This document shows positions 26,632-33,273 of a stretch of 64,000 nucleotides of DNA, in pieces. The stretch's first letter is position 1; each line of letters starts with the position of its first letter. The notes below the pieces were generated by a model, which ran no database searches, was not told the DNA's origin, and worked only from the letters and a program-made list of their open reading frames with translations. A program made the position numbers and the translations under genes. This stretch comes from Nocardioides kongjuensis (lineage in GTDB: Bacteria > Actinomycetota > Actinomycetes > Propionibacteriales > Nocardioidaceae): NCBI RefSeq assembly GCF_013409625.1, contig NZ_JACCBF010000001.1:4281001-4345000 (forward strand), read 5' to 3'.

Positions 26632-27138
26632 ATGGCCGAGGACTGGACGGACCGTCATGTCGCGCGGTGGAAGGACCACTGGCTCGACCTGGCCTTCGAC
26701 GAGGCCGTCGAGGGTGTGTTCGTCCGGGTCAACCGGATCGACCGCTACCTGCGCCGGGCCAAGCAGCGCGCCGTGGCCGAGGTCGGGCTGACCGACTTCG
26801 AGTACGACACCCTCCACGTGCTGATGATCCGCGACACGCCCGGCTCCGCCTCGCCCACCGAGCTCGCCACCGAGCTCGGGGTCTCGGGTGCCGGGATGAC
26901 CGGGCGGCTCGACGGCCTCGAGAAGGCCGGCTGGATCCGCCGGATCCCCGCCGTCGACGACCGCCGGCGGGTGATCGTCGAGGTGACCAAGACCGGCATG
27001 ACGATCTGGCGCCGGGCGATGGAGCTGCGGGGCCGGGCCGAGGACGACCTCGCGGAGGCGCTCACCGAGCGCGAGCTGGCCACCCTCAACCGGCTCTTGA
27101 AGAAGGTGACGGTGCGCTCCGAGGAGCGCGAGCGCTGA
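26632..27138 (+). CDS. MarR-family regulator
   Basis: A 168-residue winged-helix regulator. PTELATELGVSGAGMTGRLDGLEKAGWIRR (about residues 80-108) is the recognition helix and wing, followed by the conserved DDRRRVIVEVT wing. MarR proteins respond to small phenolic or drug-like ligands and often control an adjacent exporter; the MFS gene upstream is the obvious candidate. The ATG is inside the palindrome CGGCCATGGCCG and has no clear Shine-Dalgarno. A strong terminator follows. Confidence 0.85.
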   Translation: MAEDWTDRHVARWKDHWLDLAFDEAVEGVFVRVNRIDRYLRRAKQRAVAEVGLTDFEYDTLHVLMIRDTPGSASPTELATELGVSGAGMTGRLDGLEKAGWIRRIPAVDDRRRVIVEVTKTGMTIWRRAMELRGRAEDDLAEALTERELATLNRLLKKVTVRSEERER

Positions 27139-27478
27139 ACGGGAAGGCGGGTGGCCCGTCCTGAGTCAGGACGGGCCACCCGTTCGCGTCGCACCGACCC
27201 CCCACAGGCCGAGAACGCGAGGAGCGGTCCAGCTCCGACTGGCGGAGCGTCAGGACCGCGAGCAGTCGCTTCGAGAGGTACGGCGTCGGCCGCAGCCCCA
27301 GCGTCCGGAAGACGCCCGAGCACAGGGCGGCGGTCGTCTCCGGGCTCAGCCCGAGCTGGGCCGCGATGGCCGACTCGGACTGGCCCAGGGCGATCAGCCG
27401 CAGCACCTGGCGTTCCCGGATGCCCAGCCGGTCGAGCCGGCTGGTGGCGGCGAGGTAGGTGAGCTCGAGCATCGTCAT
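27086..27478 (-). CDS. Small LuxR-type helix-turn-helix protein
   Basis: A frame of 130 codons. Residues about 15-75 are a LuxR/GerE-type HTH (LGIRERQVLRLIALGQSESAIAAQLGLSPETTAALCSGVF as two helices); no receiver or sensor domain is present. The last 45 codons run through the bidirectional terminator and 53 bases into the antisense of the MarR gene, so the natural C-terminus may be shorter and the stop may have been lost. It is five bases downstream of the 127-aa gene and probably shares its message. Confidence 0.55.
   Translation of the reverse strand: MTMLELTYLAATSRLDRLGIRERQVLRLIALGQSESAIAAQLGLSPETTAALCSGVFRTLGLRPTPYLSKRLLAVLTLRQSELDRSSRSRPVGGRCDANGWPVLTQDGPPAFPFSARAPRSAPSPSSRAG
27148..27182 (+). 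terminator. Terminator after the MarR gene
   Basis: A perfect 15-base-pair stem, 27148-27162 with 27168-27182, around a 5-base loop GAGTC, ten bases after the MarR stop. It also works in the reverse direction and lies inside the 3' part of the minus-strand LuxR-like frame. Confidence 0.85.
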
Positions 27479-27483
27479 GGCTC

Positions 27484-27867
27484 TCAGGCGGGGAGGATCG
27501 GCCCGCGCAGGTGGAACCGGCGGGTCCGCGGCGGGAGGGACACGGGCCGCGGACCCGCCAGGCCGAGGACGACGGGCGCGCCGGGCGTGCCGGCGTCGTA
27601 CCGCCGCAGGATGAGGAGGACGGCGGCCTCGGTACGGCGCATCCGCGCGTACGTCGCCTGCAGCTCGTCCTCGCCGGTCTGGGTGTCGAGCTGCGCCTCG
27701 CACATGTGCTGCCAACGGGCGCGCAGCGCCGTGACCAGCGCGGTCGGGCCGTCGAAGTACGGGCGCCACTCCTCGCGCCAGGGCACCGCGCCGCTCATGT
27801 CGGTCGCGGCGGCCGCCTCGACCTCGCGGATGATGCGGGTGCGTTCGTGGGTCTCGGACCAGGTCAT
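27484..27867 (-). CDS. Hypothetical protein, 127 aa
   Basis: A cytoplasmic protein with a tryptophan-rich, charged N-terminal half (MTWSETHERTRIIREVEAA, then WREEWRPYFDG) and helical middle. The family is unrecognised. ATG 27867 has GGAAGG eight bases upstream; a longer frame to 28032 is less likely. It diverges from the sigma-factor gene across a 195-base region with an inverted repeat. Next to an HTH protein and a sigma factor it could be a regulatory partner (inference). Confidence 0.6.
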   Translation of the reverse strand: MTWSETHERTRIIREVEAAAATDMSGAVPWREEWRPYFDGPTALVTALRARWQHMCEAQLDTQTGEDELQATYARMRRTEAAVLLILRRYDAGTPGAPVVLGLAGPRPVSLPPRTRRFHLRGPILPA

Positions 27868-27961
27868 GACGGTTTCCTTCCGGGGAGCCGCGGGAGTGCC
27901 GCGCGGGGTGATGGGGCGTTTCGGGGGGGCGCTGGAAGGAGGAGGCGCCGGGGCGGGGCGG

Positions 27962-27986
27962 TGATACGCGGAATCTCGACGTATCA
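27962..27986. promoter_or_regulatory. Inverted repeat upstream of the sigma-factor gene
   Basis: TGATACG (27962-27968) and CGTATCA (27980-27986) are perfect inverted copies with an 11-base spacer, 77 bases before the sigma factor start. It is a candidate operator for the divergent pair; the LuxR-type HTH protein is a possible binder. Confidence 0.45.
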
Positions 27987-28062
27987 GCGGTACTGGTTCG
28001 CGGGTCAGATGTGCGGGACGATGCATCCGCAAGCTCTCGCGTCGAGCGATAGGGGGTCGGGT

Positions 28063-28635
28063 GTGGACGTCGATACACCGCTGTCAGCGCTCGTCCCCGC
28101 GGCGCGGGAAGGAGATCAGCATGCATGGGATGCGATCGTGGACCGCTTCCTCCCGCTGGTGGACGCGATCATCCGCGGCCACCGGCTCTCGGAGGCCGAC
28201 GGCGACGACGTCAGCCAGACCGTCTGGCTGCGCCTCGTCGAGCACCTCGGCGACCTGCGCGAGCCCGCGGCGCTGCCCGGCTGGATCCGCACGACGACCC
28301 GCAACGAGTGCCTGCGCCTGCTGGCGGCCCGCGGCCGGGTCCGTCCCGTCGACCCGCAGGACGCCTCCGGTCTCGACGCGGTCGTCGACGACGTCGCCGG
28401 GACCGACCTCCTCGCGGCCGAGAGCCGCCAGCTGCTCCGCGAGGCCCTCGCCGTGCTCCCCGAGGCCCGCCGGGCCCTGCTCCTGCTCCTGCTCGCCGAC
28501 CCACCCGTCGGCTACGAGGAGATCAGCCGCCGCCTCGGCATCCCCGTCGGCAGCATCGGCCCGACCCGCGCCCGCGCGCTCGAGCAGCTGCGCCGTACCC
28601 CCGCGCTGCGCCGACTGGTGGAGGTGATCCCGTGA
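28063..28635 (+). CDS. ECF-like sigma-70 family RNA polymerase sigma factor
   Basis: A 190-residue sigma factor. Region 2 at residues about 17-80 (AWDAIVDRFLPLVDAII, DGDDVSQTVWLRLVEHL) and region 4 at about 125-175 (LPEARRALLLLLL, YEEISRRLGIPVGSIGPTRARALEQLR). No sigma-1 or -3 regions, so ECF-type. GTG 28063 is preferred because AGGGGG lies seven bases before it; ATG 28021 is possible. It overlaps the next gene (GTGA), which encodes a probable partner rather than a typical zinc anti-sigma. Confidence 0.88.
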   Translation: MDVDTPLSALVPAAREGDQHAWDAIVDRFLPLVDAIIRGHRLSEADGDDVSQTVWLRLVEHLGDLREPAALPGWIRTTTRNECLRLLAARGRVRPVDPQDASGLDAVVDDVAGTDLLAAESRQLLREALAVLPEARRALLLLLLADPPVGYEEISRRLGIPVGSIGPTRARALEQLRRTPALRRLVEVIP

Positions 28636-29102
28636 CCGGTCCCCTGGACGACGACGAGCTGATGGCCCTGCTCGGCGAGGCCGTCGCCGAGGAGGCGGCC
28701 GTCAGCGACCGACGGCGTACGGCGGCCAAGGCTGCCTTCACCTGGCGCTCCGTCGACGCCGAGCTGGCCGAGCTGCTCCACGACTCCGCGCTCGACGCCG
28801 GCGCCGCGGTCCGCTCGGCTTCCGGCGGTGAGCCGCGCACGCTGTCCTTCGGCCACAGCGGCCTCACCCTCGAGGTCGAGATCGACGGCGAGACCCTGCT
28901 CGGCCAGGTGATCGGCACCGGCTCCGCCGCCTCGGCCGTGGAGCCCGCCTCGGTCCTCCTGGAGCGCCCCGCGGCCGAGGCCCTGAGCGCTGAGGCCGAC
29001 GCCGCCGGGTTCTTCCGGCTGGAGGGTGTGCGGCCCGGCACCGTGCGGTTCATGGTCGAGCAGGGTGGCTGGTCGCTCACCACGCCCTGGGTGACGCTGT
29101 AG
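28632..29102 (+). CDS. Sigma-factor-coupled protein of unknown function
   Basis: A 156-residue protein. The N-terminal 60 residues are acidic and helical (DDDELMALLGEAV, WRSVDAELAELLHDS); the C-terminal part is beta-rich with TLEVEIDGETLLGQVIG and a closing GFFRLEGVRPGTVRFMV, resembling a carboxypeptidase-regulatory-like or carbohydrate-binding fold. It has no membrane helix and no HxxxCxxC motif. GTGA coupling to the sigma factor suggests a soluble regulator or sensor; unproven. Confidence 0.65.
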   Translation: MTGPLDDDELMALLGEAVAEEAAVSDRRRTAAKAAFTWRSVDAELAELLHDSALDAGAAVRSASGGEPRTLSFGHSGLTLEVEIDGETLLGQVIGTGSAASAVEPASVLLERPAAEALSAEADAAGFFRLEGVRPGTVRFMVEQGGWSLTTPWVTL

Positions 29103-29128
29103 CGCGTGGTCGGGTCTTCCGCGTCGTA

Positions 29129-29177
29129 CCTGACGAACAGGTCGTGAATCGGCGCGATCTGCAGCCCATTCGTCAGG
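29129..29177. terminator. Palindromic bidirectional terminator element
   Basis: CCTGACGAA (29129-29137) pairs with TTCGTCAGG (29169-29177) around a 31-base centre with GTGAATC and weaker internal pairing. It lies between convergent genes. It has the same 49-base length as, and is identical at 32 of 49 positions to, the element at 24786-24834. Confidence 0.65.
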
Positions 29178-29189
29178 TGCGTGTGTGGG

Positions 29190-30629
29190 TCAGGTGAGTG
29201 GGCCGACGATCCGGATGTCCTCGTGGATCCGGGCGTCGTGCTCGTCGATGGCCGTTGCCTCGACGGCCTGCCACGCGGCGCGCGGGGAGGTCTTGCTCGC
29301 GCGCATCTCGGCCGCGACCAGGCCTGTCACGACGGGTGCCGAGAACGACGTGCCGCTCCACTGGGCGAGGCCGTCGAACTTCCGCACGACGCCCGCGTGG
29401 GGAGGCTCGTGACAGGTGTAGGTACCGATCGGGAAGGCGTTGACGAGGTTGCGGCCGCGCGCATAGACCTTCACCCAGTGCTTGCCGTAGTTGGAGAAGT
29501 CCGAGACCTTCTTGTCCGGGTCGACCGAACCGACCGAGACGGCCCAGGGAAAGGCGGCCGGCCAGAACTCGTCGTCGCTCGCGTCGTTGCCCGCCGCCGC
29601 GATCACGAGGACGTCGTCGCGCTCGGCCAGGCGGTACTTCACCCCCAGCATGGCGAAGGACAGTGCCGGGAGGTTGCCGAAGGTGTGGGTGCCTGCGGAG
29701 ATGCTGATCAGCTGCGGGTGGTCGTTGTCGCCGAGTGCCTCGTCGAGCTGCCGGACGATCCTCGACTCCCAGATCGCGCCGCCGAGGGTCAGTGCACCCT
29801 CGACCTCGATCCGGGTCTCCGGGGCCAGGCAGCTGATCACGCCCGCGACGAACGTGCCGTGCCCGGCGTACGGGTGGATCGCCGCGCTGTTGACGTGCTC
29901 CTCGTCCGTGGAGTCCGCGAACACGTCGTCGGACTCGAGCCAGGGCGAGGCCGCGCTGTCGATCGCGTCCATCCACAGGCCGGTGTCGACGACGGCCACG
30001 CGGACCTTGTCCTTCGCGTCCGGAGCGGGGATCGGGTCGGGCTGCTGGGGCGGCCAGGGCCGGCGGCTGCGCGGCACCTCGGGCTCGGTGGCCGGGCAGA
30101 ATCCCGGCTTGAGGGTCGTGACGTACACGAGGTGGTCGGGCGCAGCGACCGGCGGTGTCTCGTCCTCGTCCGACCGGCCGAAGAAGTCGTTCAGCTCGGT
30201 GACGGTCGCCAGGACGTCGTCGCCCCGGTCACGGCGGCTCGGGAGGCGCAGGACCACGAGGTGGTCAGCGACCGGGTCCTCCACGCGCTCCGGCTCGCCG
30301 CGGAAGTCCTCGCCGCGGCCGCGGAACCACTCCATGACCTCCTCGAGCCGCTCGGCCTGCACGAGGGCGTGGCCGGGCCGGTAGAAGAAGCGGATGTCGG
30401 CGTCGTCCTTGACCGCCCGGTCCTCCGGGCCGGCGGCCGCGATCTCGCCCTTGAAGGCGTCGCGGATCACCCGCGCCTGGACCCTGGCCTTCTCCCGATC
30501 GATCCGTCCCGGGTCGGTCGGACGGACCTGGGAGAGGTCTGGTCGCCGCAGGCGCCAGGGAAGGCGGAGCAACCGGATCAGCGGGCTGAGCGGGTTGAGC
30601 GTGCGAGCAGGACCATCGGGCTGTGACAT
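29190..30629 (-). CDS. Subtilisin-like (S8) serine protease, cytoplasmic
   Basis: A 479-residue protease. The catalytic triad reads D215 (VAVVDTGLW), H257 (GHGTFVAGVIS) and S428 (GTSFSAPVVTGL), all intact; the oxyanion asparagine is in AAAGND. The N-terminal 200 residues contain no signal peptide but a charged region and a fold that may act as a pro-domain. A cytoplasmic S8 protease is unusual for a housekeeping enzyme. ATG 30629 is supported by AGGAG six bases upstream; frames extending to 30743 are not needed. It diverges by 112 bases from a CHAT protease gene, suggesting a joint system. Confidence 0.85.
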   Translation of the reverse strand: MSQPDGPARTLNPLSPLIRLLRLPWRLRRPDLSQVRPTDPGRIDREKARVQARVIRDAFKGEIAAAGPEDRAVKDDADIRFFYRPGHALVQAERLEEVMEWFRGRGEDFRGEPERVEDPVADHLVVLRLPSRRDRGDDVLATVTELNDFFGRSDEDETPPVAAPDHLVYVTTLKPGFCPATEPEVPRSRRPWPPQQPDPIPAPDAKDKVRVAVVDTGLWMDAIDSAASPWLESDDVFADSTDEEHVNSAAIHPYAGHGTFVAGVISCLAPETRIEVEGALTLGGAIWESRIVRQLDEALGDNDHPQLISISAGTHTFGNLPALSFAMLGVKYRLAERDDVLVIAAAGNDASDDEFWPAAFPWAVSVGSVDPDKKVSDFSNYGKHWVKVYARGRNLVNAFPIGTYTCHEPPHAGVVRKFDGLAQWSGTSFSAPVVTGLVAAEMRASKTSPRAAWQAVEATAIDEHDARIHEDIRIVGPLT

Positions 30630-30639
30630 AGCCGCTCCT

Positions 30640-30695
30640 GAGGGGGGAGGACTCGGGCCGATTGCACCGGGCGGCGCTAACGTAGTGCCCCCCTC
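30640..30695. promoter_or_regulatory. Divergent promoter region of the S8 and CHAT genes
   Basis: The 112-base gap carries an 8-base inverted repeat, GAGGGGGG (30640-30647) and CCCCCCTC (30688-30695), around an AT-richer centre with TTGCAC and CTAACG. It is a likely shared control region; exact promoters cannot be set. Confidence 0.35.
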
Positions 30696-30741
30696 GCGAC
30701 GCCGTAAAGGAGTCCGTTCCCCACAACCCGGCGAGGCGCCC

Positions 30742-33273
30742 ATGGAGGACCTGCTCGACCTGGCGCTCGACCAGCCCGAGGAAGCCCGTCGGCGTGCCGA
30801 GGTCGTCCTCGCCGCGGAGCCCGACGAGCTCAGCCGGTCGTACGCCTACCAGTGCCTCGGCATCGTCCTCCGCGACGCCGGCAGCACGGTCGAGGCGCTG
30901 GCCGCCCTGCGCAGCGCGGTGCGGGCCGCGCGCCGGAGCGCCGACCCCGATCGGGTGCGCGACGTCCGCGCGACCCTGGGGGTCACCCTCGCCTTCGACG
31001 GCCGCTCCCGGGCCGCGCTGCGAGAGCTCGAGACGGCCTTCGCCGGCGCCGAGGGCGAGGTCGCAGCCAAGATCGCGGTGCGGCTGGCGGGTGTGCTCAC
31101 CGTGCTCGGGCGGCATGACGACGCCATCCCGGTCCTTCACGTCGCTCTTCGGGAGATCCAGCAGGCGGGGAACCGCGCCTGGGAGGCGCGGACCCACCTC
31201 TGGCTGGCCTACGTCCTGCTGCGTCTCGGTCGCGTCGACGAGGCCGAGACCGCGGTGGTCGCGAGCGCCCGCATCCTGGCGGAGGAGGGCGCCTGGGTCG
31301 ACCGGCTCGCCAGCCTGACGAACCTCGCCGAGATCGCGGTCGCTCGGGGAGATCACGCTGCCGCGTTGCGCCGCTTCGCCGACACGGCCGAGGCGTATGA
31401 CCGGGCGGGTTTGCCGATCGCGCCCGGCTTCGTCTCGATGTTCGCCGACGCCTACCTCTCAGTGGGGCTCACGGTCGAGGCGGTTGCGCTCCTTCGCGAC
31501 TTCGACGCAAGGATCGCTCCGCTCGAACAGGCCGAGTTCCTGGCAACGCTGGCCACGGCATTGCTCGCTGATGGTGATGCCGCGGCGGCAGTCGATGCGG
31601 CACGGCAGTCTGCGTTGCTCTTCAAGCGCCAGGACCGGCCTTGGTTCGGGCTGCGCAGTCGCCTCACCGCCGTCCGGGCACGCCTGGCCCAGGACGACCG
31701 GCGTGGTCTGGTCGGCGAGGCCGCGGCAGTCGCCGAGGAGCTCGACACGCAGAGTGCGGACGAGGCCCCCCTCGCCCTCACCCTCGCCGGCCGGCTGGCC
31801 CAGGGCGACGACCGGGCGAACTTCTGGACCCGGGCCGCGTCGTACCGCCACCACCCCAATGCCCTCGTCCGCGCCGGCGCCTGGCACGCCCAGGCCCTGG
31901 CCCGCGAGGAGACGCACGACCGGGGCGGGGTGCTGCGCGCGGCCGCTGCCGGACTCGACGCGATCGACGAGCACCGACGGCTGATCGGCTCCTCCGAGCT
32001 CCGGGCGCTGGCGACCACCCACGGGCGTGACCTGACGACCATCGCGCTGCGGCACGCGGCCAGTGACGCCCGGACCCTGCTGCGGTGGAGCGAGCGGACC
32101 CGGGCCACGGCGCTGGCGCAGCCGCCGGCGACCTCGGACGCGGCGACCATCCCTGCCTCGCTGGCGGCCCTGCGCGACAACGGACGGCAGCTCGCCGAGG
32201 CTCGGCAGGAGGGCGCGGAGACCGAGGAGCTCGAGCGGGAGCGGCGGCGCCTGGAGCGGGCGGTGCGGGCGGAGAGCCACACGCTGTCGGCCACCACGGC
32301 CGCGCAGCAGCGGCCGGCGCGGGTCGAGGAGATCCTCGCGGCGACCGGCGAGACCTGCCTGGTCGAGCTGGTCGACGTCGACGGGAGCCTCCACGTCGTG
32401 GTCGCCCACGCCGGAAAGGTACGACGCCGGGTCGCCGGCACGACCAGCGAGATCGCCGCCCTGCTCGGCCCAGCGGGGATGCTGCTGCGGCGTGCGGCCC
32501 GCGGCCGGCCTGCCGACACCGGCGCCATCGGGAAGGCCCTCCAGGAGGCGGTCCTCGGCGACGCCGTCCGCCTCCTCCCCGACACCCCGGTCGTGCTCGC
32601 ACCGACCGCCCGTCTGCACGGACTGGCCTGGTCGCTGCTGCCCACGCTCCACGACCGGCCGTTCGCGGTGGTCCCGTCGGCGGGCCAGTGGCTGCGGGCC
32701 CGGGCCACCCCGCCTCCGCGGAACGCCGGCACGGTCCTCGTCGCCGGCCCGTCCCTGGCGAGCGGCGGCGCCGAGGTGCCGGTCCTGGCGCAGCGGCACC
32801 CGGACGCCGTCCTGCTCGACGGGCCGGGCGCCACGCTCACCGCGGTGCTGGCCCACCTCGACGGCGCTGGTCTGGTCCACCTGGCCGCCCACGGCCGGTT
32901 CCGGGCGGACAGCCCGCTGTTCTCGGCGCTCGACCTGGCCGACGGCCCGCTGACGGTCCACGACCTGGAGCGGGTCCGGCGGGCGCCGTACCGCGTCGTG
33001 CTCTCGGCCTGCGAGTCCGGCGTGCTCGCCCCGGTCGGTGCGGACGAGCTCCTCGGGCTGGCGGCGGCGCTGTTCTCGCTCGGCACCGCCGGCCTGGTGT
33101 GCAGCGTCGGTGAGGTCAACGACGACGCGACCGCCGCCCTGATGGTCGACCTCCATGCCGCGCTCGCCACCGGCAGCGACCCGGCGACCGCCCTGTGCGA
33201 GGTACGCCGCCGAGCCGCGGGCGACCCGGTCGCGGCCGGCACCGCAGCGGCCTTCCTCGCGCTGGGCGTGTGA
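30742..33273 (+). CDS. TPR-CHAT protease
   Basis: An 843-residue protein. Residues 1 to about 480 are repeated helical pairs (tetratricopeptide-like, e.g. LGIVLRDAGSTVEALAAL, LAYVLLRLGRVDEAETAV). Residues about 560-843 form a CHAT caspase-like peptidase domain with the catalytic dyad H717 (HLAAHGRF) and C757 (VVLSACESG). TPR-CHAT proteins act as triggered proteases in bacterial immunity and cell death, the best known being the CRISPR-associated Craspase partner; no CRISPR genes are here. Parts of the TPR region look somewhat less GC-rich than neighbouring genes, hinting at transfer. ATG 30742 has GAGG five bases upstream. Confidence 0.88.
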   Translation: MEDLLDLALDQPEEARRRAEVVLAAEPDELSRSYAYQCLGIVLRDAGSTVEALAALRSAVRAARRSADPDRVRDVRATLGVTLAFDGRSRAALRELETAFAGAEGEVAAKIAVRLAGVLTVLGRHDDAIPVLHVALREIQQAGNRAWEARTHLWLAYVLLRLGRVDEAETAVVASARILAEEGAWVDRLASLTNLAEIAVARGDHAAALRRFADTAEAYDRAGLPIAPGFVSMFADAYLSVGLTVEAVALLRDFDARIAPLEQAEFLATLATALLADGDAAAAVDAARQSALLFKRQDRPWFGLRSRLTAVRARLAQDDRRGLVGEAAAVAEELDTQSADEAPLALTLAGRLAQGDDRANFWTRAASYRHHPNALVRAGAWHAQALAREETHDRGGVLRAAAAGLDAIDEHRRLIGSSELRALATTHGRDLTTIALRHAASDARTLLRWSERTRATALAQPPATSDAATIPASLAALRDNGRQLAEARQEGAETEELERERRRLERAVRAESHTLSATTAAQQRPARVEEILAATGETCLVELVDVDGSLHVVVAHAGKVRRRVAGTTSEIAALLGPAGMLLRRAARGRPADTGAIGKALQEAVLGDAVRLLPDTPVVLAPTARLHGLAWSLLPTLHDRPFAVVPSAGQWLRARATPPPRNAGTVLVAGPSLASGGAEVPVLAQRHPDAVLLDGPGATLTAVLAHLDGAGLVHLAAHGRFRADSPLFSALDLADGPLTVHDLERVRRAPYRVVLSACESGVLAPVGADELLGLAAALFSLGTAGLVCSVGEVNDDATAALMVDLHAALATGSDPATALCEVRRRAAGDPVAAGTAAAFLALGV

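Follow-up and report, generated by a model that had tools for sequence, protein, structure and literature searches.

Six genes occupy positions 27086..33273 of the window, by which we mean the whole 64-kb stretch of Nocardioides kongjuensis DNA that was analysed. Four of them, encoding an extracytoplasmic function (ECF) sigma factor, a 156-residue protein (p156), a subtilisin-like S8 protease and a TPR-CHAT protease, form a conserved module that recurs in many soil actinobacteria, and we give an even chance to the reading that this module is an ECF sigma switch of the ECF54 type that regulates itself and is gated by proteases. The part of this proposal that is read directly from the DNA comprises the conserved gene set, the fixed pairing of the sigma factor with p156, the intact catalytic residues of both proteases and a motif at many sigma promoters. 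The features of the locus are as follows.

27086..27478, minus strand: LuxR/GerE-type helix-turn-helix (HTH) frame (Pfam GerE), C-terminal third doubtful
27484..27867, minus strand: 127-amino-acid protein, lineage-specific accessory and probable regulon member
27942..27967, minus strand: predicted sigma-dependent promoter of the 127-amino-acid/HTH unit, GTATCA-N16-CCTC
27981..28006, plus strand: predicted sigma-dependent promoter of sigma-p156, GTATCA-N16-GGTC
28063..28635, plus strand: ECF sigma factor, 190 amino acids, in an ECF54-like context (Pfam/NCBIfam), with the conserved partner p156
28632..29102, plus strand: p156, 156 amino acids, candidate anti-sigma factor or protease substrate (AlphaFold2, weak CarboxypepD_reg match, tandem pairing)
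29190..30629, minus strand: S8 (subtilisin-like) protease, 479 amino acids, with the invariant triad D215/H257/S428 (Pfam)
30630..30741, no strand: divergent S8/CHAT control region, 112 bases, without the GTATCA motif
30742..33273, plus strand: TPR-CHAT protease, 843 amino acids, with the invariant dyad H717/C757 (Pfam)

The six genes, the 4-base GTGA overlap of the sigma and p156 genes and the 112-base gap between the S8 and CHAT genes, all described in the initial annotation, were re-derived from the window, and the Pfam matches to GerE (31.3 bits), Sigma70_r2 (39.3), Peptidase_S8 (91.9), CHAT (94.5) and TPR_12 (55.8) all exceed their cut-offs. The conserved co-occurrence of the four core genes, by which that annotation had proposed to check its reading, is borne out. 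In the order Propionibacteriales, p156 was found in 48 of 147 genomes, and 20 of these places were examined over about 20 kb each (14.5 and 13.1 kb in two cases). Gene calling identified the sigma factor, p156 and CHAT in all 21 of these loci, the window included, and S8 in 19; a six-frame search recovered S8 in the remaining two, so that all four genes are present in 21 of 21. Across a phylum sample of 396 genomes, p156 occurs in 49 and the CHAT subtype (E <= 1e-60) in 48, with 42 genomes holding both (Fisher p 9.9e-43). Seven genomes have p156 only and six have CHAT only; direct reading of five of the latter (G172, G352, G382, G393 and G403; the sixth, G490, was not read) revealed a weak p156 beside CHAT. 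A scan of named genomes used the sigma profile because the p156 profile was too variable. In the best 80 of 566 confirmed sigma-selected loci, all four genes were present in 70, p156 in 76, CHAT in 73 and S8 in 72; six of the ten incomplete loci are shorter than 12 kb and four (L196, L219, L232 and L235) are not. Among four Geodermatophilus loci, L191 has all four genes, L196 has the sigma factor, p156 and an S8-like fragment, and L219 and L232 have the sigma factor only. The named p156 relatives are largely from Nocardioides.

Within the module, the sigma-p156 pairing is fixed, whereas the order and orientation of the proteases vary. The p156 gene lies directly 3' of the sigma gene on the same strand in 131 cases (a few loci were entered twice under different handles), 94 of them overlapping and 34 by exactly 4 bases, and 12 p156 genes do not directly follow a sigma gene. 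The pair is kept even where no protease lies within 8 kb (L086, L092, L093, L106 and L117). In 94 of 117 distinct loci the S8 and CHAT genes are divergent and at most 400 bases apart. In Nocardioides, sigma-p156 is followed by S8/CHAT; in another Propionibacteriales family CHAT lies upstream of sigma or is convergent with p156; and Lentzea, Saccharothrix, Micromonospora and Cellulomonas mostly have the order CHAT< S8> sigma> p156>. Because additional p156-CHAT-S8 trios without an adjacent sigma gene exist in two loci (L099 and L113), p156 links the sigma half of the module to the protease half. No natural fusions among the sigma factor, p156, S8, CHAT and the 127-amino-acid protein were found among the called proteins. 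The two pairs could also be independent units merely travelling together, as each is kept more tightly than the quartet and in some genomes they are separated: p156, accompanied by the sigma gene or not, is remote from CHAT in G264, G232, G308, G188, G335 and G381 (L162-L168), with S8 adjoining CHAT in five of the seven separated places (L163-L167, not L162 or L168). However, these genomes belong to the 42 shared ones, and co-occurrence thus persists with the genes far apart, which makes independence highly improbable.

The association of the four genes is already known as the ECF54 context pattern. Section 3.3 of a review describes ECF54 as an actinobacterial group with conserved carboxypeptidase-labelled, subtilase and CHAT genes (PMC8999054, citing Casas-Pastor 2021 and Huang 2015), and the cassette of the window shares all of these traits, with an ECF sigma factor and carboxypeptidase(-regulatory-like), subtilase and CHAT genes in its context. 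The window sigma factor matches NCBIfam sigma70-ECF with 58.2 bits against a cut-off of 42.9, and its Sigma70_r4_2 match (25.1 bits) lies just below the Pfam cut-off of 25.7; its assignment to ECF54 is by gene context. The same section lists ECF54 as controlled by proteolysis, names no anti-sigma factor and proposes degradation of the sigma factor, the cited basis being gene context only; our reading differs in pointing to p156 as the probable anti-sigma factor and in naming a candidate promoter. In the published proposal, the sigma factor itself is the substrate of the proteases and is broken down until a signal halts them. Direct proteolysis is thus stated for this very group (PMC8999054), and the proteases are indeed conserved with the sigma factor. 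However, the carboxypeptidase-domain protein named there, which we take as p156, has a Pfam match to the regulatory-like CarboxypepD_reg domain. Moreover, the proposal gives p156 no inhibitor role although it is the closest partner of the sigma factor, and the pair survives in the loci lacking nearby proteases. We consider direct degradation unlikely. No experiment on the cassette was found in the literature searched, and the two primary ECF54 papers may say more on p156 and promoters; the proposals that p156 is a brake and that the motif is a promoter are new to us, while the gene grouping itself is known.

A role of p156 as a carboxypeptidase was discarded: only the regulatory-like CarboxypepD_reg domain matches (23.4 bits for the window protein, below the cut-off of 32.3; precomputed PF13620 is listed for many relatives), and the predicted structure is a beta sandwich. 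Because p156 is not a carboxypeptidase but the fixed partner of the sigma factor in 131 tandem pairs, it is likely to be the missing anti-sigma factor. The AlphaFold2 model of p156 alone (75 sequences; mean predicted local distance difference test score (pLDDT) 80.5, predicted template modelling score 0.58) has a helix at residues 7-36, a short helix at 43-52 and a confident beta sandwich at 69-156; the earlier description of the protein as beta-rich is therefore secure for its second half. Residues 36-63 fall below pLDDT 50 and have no confident placement, and residues 37-48 form the most conserved 12-residue block (mean entropy 1.77 bits versus 2.09-2.82 elsewhere, in 132 sequences), so that this segment may fold on a partner. 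In a weak analysis of sigma-p156 coupling, based on 132 pairs with an effective number of 90 for 346 columns and confounded by relatedness, 8 of the 10 strongest links fall in p156 residues 1-62 (binomial p 0.014). Sub-threshold fold matches in the PDB include many immunoglobulin- or fibronectin-like sandwiches. The fixed pairing with the sigma factor and the independent pairing with the proteases would fit a scaffold equally well, in which case p156 would be a positive adaptor bringing the sigma factor to the proteases or to RNA polymerase. However, partners encoded just downstream of ECF sigma factors are usually anti-sigma factors, and the presence of proteases in the system suggests a destructible inhibitor; an adaptor is quite unlikely in our estimation.

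The sigma factor appears to have a promoter of its own, predicted as GTATCA-N15/16-SSTC. The upstream regions were first inspected for exact bipartite words in 56 sigma upstreams and in shuffled controls. There a GC-rich word pair was commoner than GTATC-GCTC (11 versus 10 of 56; shuffled maximum 8), but the GTATC family, which kept appearing as overlapping variants, was taken forward to a test of its own: its strict form occurs in 10 of 56 sigma upstreams against a mean of 0.05 in 20 shuffles. These 56 regions both suggested and first tested the motif, whereas the 80 named loci are largely independent; in the latter it precedes 24 of 80 operon leaders and 14 of 41 internal sigma genes, compared with 12 of 888 other genes. 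GTATC[AT] was found before 69 of 130 non-identical operon leaders and before 62 of the 1587 remaining genes in these loci (p 5e-50); its spacing to [GC]CTC is most often 15 (30 cases) or 16 (9 cases), which together make up 39 of 67 leader sites. When the regions upstream of leader or sigma genes are counted (up to two per locus), 55 of 80 and 33 of 55 loci carry GTATC[AT], and 43 and 25 loci, respectively, have the complete bipartite motif. Upstream of CHAT (one region per gene), the bipartite motif was found in 0 of 77 and 0 of 51 cases and GTATC[AT] in 0 of 77 and 1 of 51; the 112-base S8/CHAT gap of the window also lacks the bipartite motif.

As the motif stands before many sigma genes and not before CHAT, the sigma factor seems to control itself, and not the proteases, in this genus. 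The initial annotation had the sigma factor set the transcription of the proteolytic cascade; a promoter-like motif supports such control for the sigma operon, but control of the proteases is not supported. Sigma control of CHAT was rejected (0 of 128 upstreams with the bipartite motif), and control of S8 holds mainly where S8 leads the sigma operon. Among the 80 named loci, the motif precedes 8 of 40 S8 genes that are leaders (in a relaxed form) and 3 of the 32 that are not, and three of four earlier S8 cases were operon leaders, L085 being the exception. A different element with the core TTTAC-N16-ACTA, found in 6 of 45 S8 upstreams, all Nocardioides-like, lies in the S8/CHAT gap; we read it as a housekeeping-like element in the direction of S8. 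The motif was also considered as an operator of the LuxR-type HTH protein; this is disfavoured, as 34 of 39 motif-bearing leaders lie in loci without a called 127-amino-acid gene, and the motif therefore tracks the sigma factor and not the HTH protein.

In the genome of the window, GTATCA-N15/16-SSTC has 8 sites compared with 3 in a reversed control. Two of them lie back-to-back at the sigma and 127-amino-acid gene promoters, and set against the three control sites the other six include four in promoter position, preceding an endonuclease/exonuclease/phosphatase-like gene, a gene cut by the locus end, a 50-amino-acid frame and a gene for a secreted-looking protein. In 20 other genomes, the strict form has 52 sites in the 15 with p156 (control 25) and 3 in the 5 without it (control 5), two groups that differ in genome size. 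Inspection of the listings revealed no recurring gene family at the other motif sites, a family search not having been run on most of them. In a distant genome (L106:1900-10187), sigma-p156 lies beside polysaccharide-like genes with three motif copies, including genes for a UDP-sugar dehydrogenase (Pfam) and, judged by eye, chain-length-type and DegT-type proteins; in L144 the motif precedes another chain-length-like gene. In L089, L102, L103 and L040, copies of the motif closely follow the 3' end of CHAT or S8 and face away from the cassette, and the next 300 bases contain no called gene; small genes or RNAs at these copies are possible.

The initial annotation had treated the LuxR-type HTH and 127-amino-acid genes as one of three units of the cassette. 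The sigma factor, p156, S8 and TPR-CHAT form its core as described there, but the HTH and 127-amino-acid genes are not core and are a lineage-specific addition, the 127-amino-acid protein or a paralogue being found in 9 of 147 genomes of the order. The unit appears to lie in the sigma regulon, given that the [GC]CTC form of the motif precedes the 127-amino-acid gene in 7 of 8 and 4 of 5 cases. The C-terminal third of the HTH frame is doubtful because the frame (130 amino acids) is longer than its small relatives (of 11 HTH matches below 200 amino acids, 8 have 81-92 and the others 131, 192 and 193), has a low coding score (8.7) and crosses a perfect inverted repeat at 27149-27181, identified by eye, running into the end of a MarR gene; its natural stop may have been lost. 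A paralogue of the 127-amino-acid gene precedes a gene for a cytochrome P450-like protein of 443-461 amino acids (by eye) in the genome of the window (L271, G000:C1:4187119-4187457) and in four relatives (L267-L270); the pair adjoins a divergent membrane-protein-like gene and lacks the motif.

Both proteases have intact catalytic residues, as initially described: D215, H257 and S428 of S8, together with N348, are invariant in 23 aligned sequences, and H717 and C757 of CHAT in 24, the window included in both. The window S8 has no signal peptide apparent by eye, unlike its relatives in L083 and L110, which begin with a signal-peptide-like sequence by the same judgement. The resemblance to solved CHAT chains is weak and confined to the CHAT core: the CHAT profile hits 8rot (991 residues) at 2e-8 and, at about 1e-6, several PDB chains entitled 'CHAT domain protein', among them 8d9f and 7x8a; we take these chains to be Csx29. 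Next to CHAT, two genomes from a single family (L118/L176 and L168) have in place of S8 a protein with trypsin-type motifs by reading (weak NAL1_N match, E 0.0014, for L176; no match for L168). Short tandem peptide repeats, such as PAYQGN, PYPGGT, GTRTNPY, HPFWGG and the EPHYQ/EPYYQ type, occur just before or within the protease domains of S8 in L094, L098, L102 and L108 and of the trypsin-like proteases in L168 and L176; these are possible multi-cut activation linkers. Directly behind sigma-p156 in L039 (10464-12287) lies a gene for a 607-amino-acid protein whose first half is trypsin-like by eye and whose C terminus is a DNA/RNA non-specific endonuclease domain (PF01223, E 1.3e-42), a possible effector.

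Another explanation is a death cascade set off by phage or stress, in which one of the two proteases activates the other, the cell is killed or stalled and the sigma factor mainly boosts the response. The nuclease-bearing protein of L039 and the action of CHAT proteins in CRISPR-linked immunity (PMC10028731) speak for it. However, L039 is the single such case noticed, no motif precedes CHAT, and the surroundings are ordinary. Nine of ten nearby window genes belong to ordinary Pfam families (transport, regulation, oxidoreductase, lipase, transglutaminase-like, chorismate/amidotransferase) and one to none; no defence-like gene is among these ten, the neighbourhoods of relatives not having been scanned. 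The single PADLOC match, a flavoprotein to a 'desaturase' model, was judged generic, a defence island was therefore rejected for the window, and p156 had no match in phage and plasmid collections at E 1e-5. We regard a death cascade as improbable. The phage and defence link drawn by the initial annotation thus found no support, nor did its protease cascade, cleavage not being demonstrable from sequence; overall, that reading is partly supported.

The protease-gated switch would operate as follows. In the resting cell, p156 and the sigma factor would be produced from one transcript and p156, most likely via its N-terminal helical part, would keep the sigma factor inactive, while S8 and TPR-CHAT would be made separately from their common divergent control region. 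An intracellular signal, probably sensed through the TPR repeats, would activate CHAT, which, alone or through S8, would cut p156 and free the sigma factor. The freed sigma factor would drive GTATCA-N15/16-SSTC promoters, its own operon first and then, in this lineage, the 127-amino-acid/HTH unit; by transcribing its own operon it would be self-amplifying. We infer four elements of this scheme, namely inhibition by p156, its cutting by CHAT or S8, the promoter role of the motif and the nature of the signal.

Several observations weigh against this scheme. No p156 was seen in 4 of the 80 sigma-selected loci (one at a contig end), and four p156 loci (L081, L082, L100 and L119; two near contig ends) have no nearby sigma gene. 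No known anti-sigma family matches p156 significantly (RsiG, E 0.0035, is below the cut-off), and no fold in the PDB resembles it at E <= 0.001 (best 0.015). Taken one by one, the best-conserved residues of p156 lie mostly in or just before the sandwich (G126, G91, R61 and F128; S52 is also among them), and 15 weaker matches in the phylum (E 1e-10 to 1e-3) start at profile position 37 or later and therefore miss most of the N-terminal part. The coupling is only weakly N-terminal beyond the strongest links: residues 1-62 account for 47.5% of the top 40 links and 42% of the top 100, where 41% would be expected. The full bipartite motif is missing before sigma or leader genes in 37 of 80 and 30 of 55 loci, and the 15/16 spacer peak recurs at the GTATC[AT] sites of background genes (20 of 38), so that either some of these genes are genuine targets or the peak has less specificity than it seems to have.

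We put at somewhat below even the chance that p156 is both the missing anti-sigma factor of ECF54 and the substrate of a CRISPR-free TPR-CHAT protease, with such release general in actinobacteria. If true, protease-released ECF sigma factors, as in the CRISPR-linked Csx29/Csx30 and CalpL/CalpT systems, would be a general actinobacterial signalling device, the CHAT-protease/anti-sigma/sigma logic of type III-E CRISPR would be a common CRISPR-independent circuit, and the second protease would be an exchangeable part, either S8 or, in some lineages, a trypsin-like enzyme. With a likely brake and a likely promoter named, the question is directly testable by a two-plasmid reporter.

Comparison with known systems places the module beside several protease-linked sigma factors. 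Its closest analogue, apart from the CRISPR link, is Csx29/Csx30/CASP-sigma, in which cleavage of Csx30 by Csx29 lifts the inhibition of CASP-sigma; motifs of this sigma factor lie inside the locus (PMC10028731). Both systems have a TPR-CHAT protease, an ECF sigma factor, an inhibitor partner (a candidate one here) and sigma motifs in the locus. Unlike type III-E, the window cassette has an additional S8 protease, and no cas family is present among the ten window neighbours (one without a Pfam match), CRISPR arrays not having been searched for; nor is p156 a recognisable Csx30 homologue, its profile finding no PDB sequence relative below E 0.29 and its model no PDB fold match at E <= 0.001. 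By hypothesis the cassette works like Csx29-type systems, without being a member of those CRISPR systems. The window S8 has a subtilase domain in common with the IetS-type S8 proteases known from candidate defence systems (weak matches, E 6e-7 in PADLOC and 4e-5 in NCBIfam), but its score is far below the NCBIfam cut-off (22 versus 900 bits). EACC2-caspase systems with an ECF sigma factor (PMC8195603) and myxobacterial metacaspase operons with sigma-70 (PMC3501461) also place a caspase-fold protease gene beside a sigma gene, as here, but have other protease families and partners, with no S8 or p156-like protein mentioned in the available text. In the CalpL/CalpT/CalpS system, CalpL cuts the anti-sigma factor CalpT bound to the ECF sigma factor CalpS (PMC11417357), as we propose for p156. 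That protease is a Lon-SAVED protein switched on by cyclic tetra-adenylate, whereas Pfam finds neither a Lon nor a SAVED domain in the six window proteins; the two would nevertheless share the freeing of an ECF sigma factor by cutting of its inhibitor.

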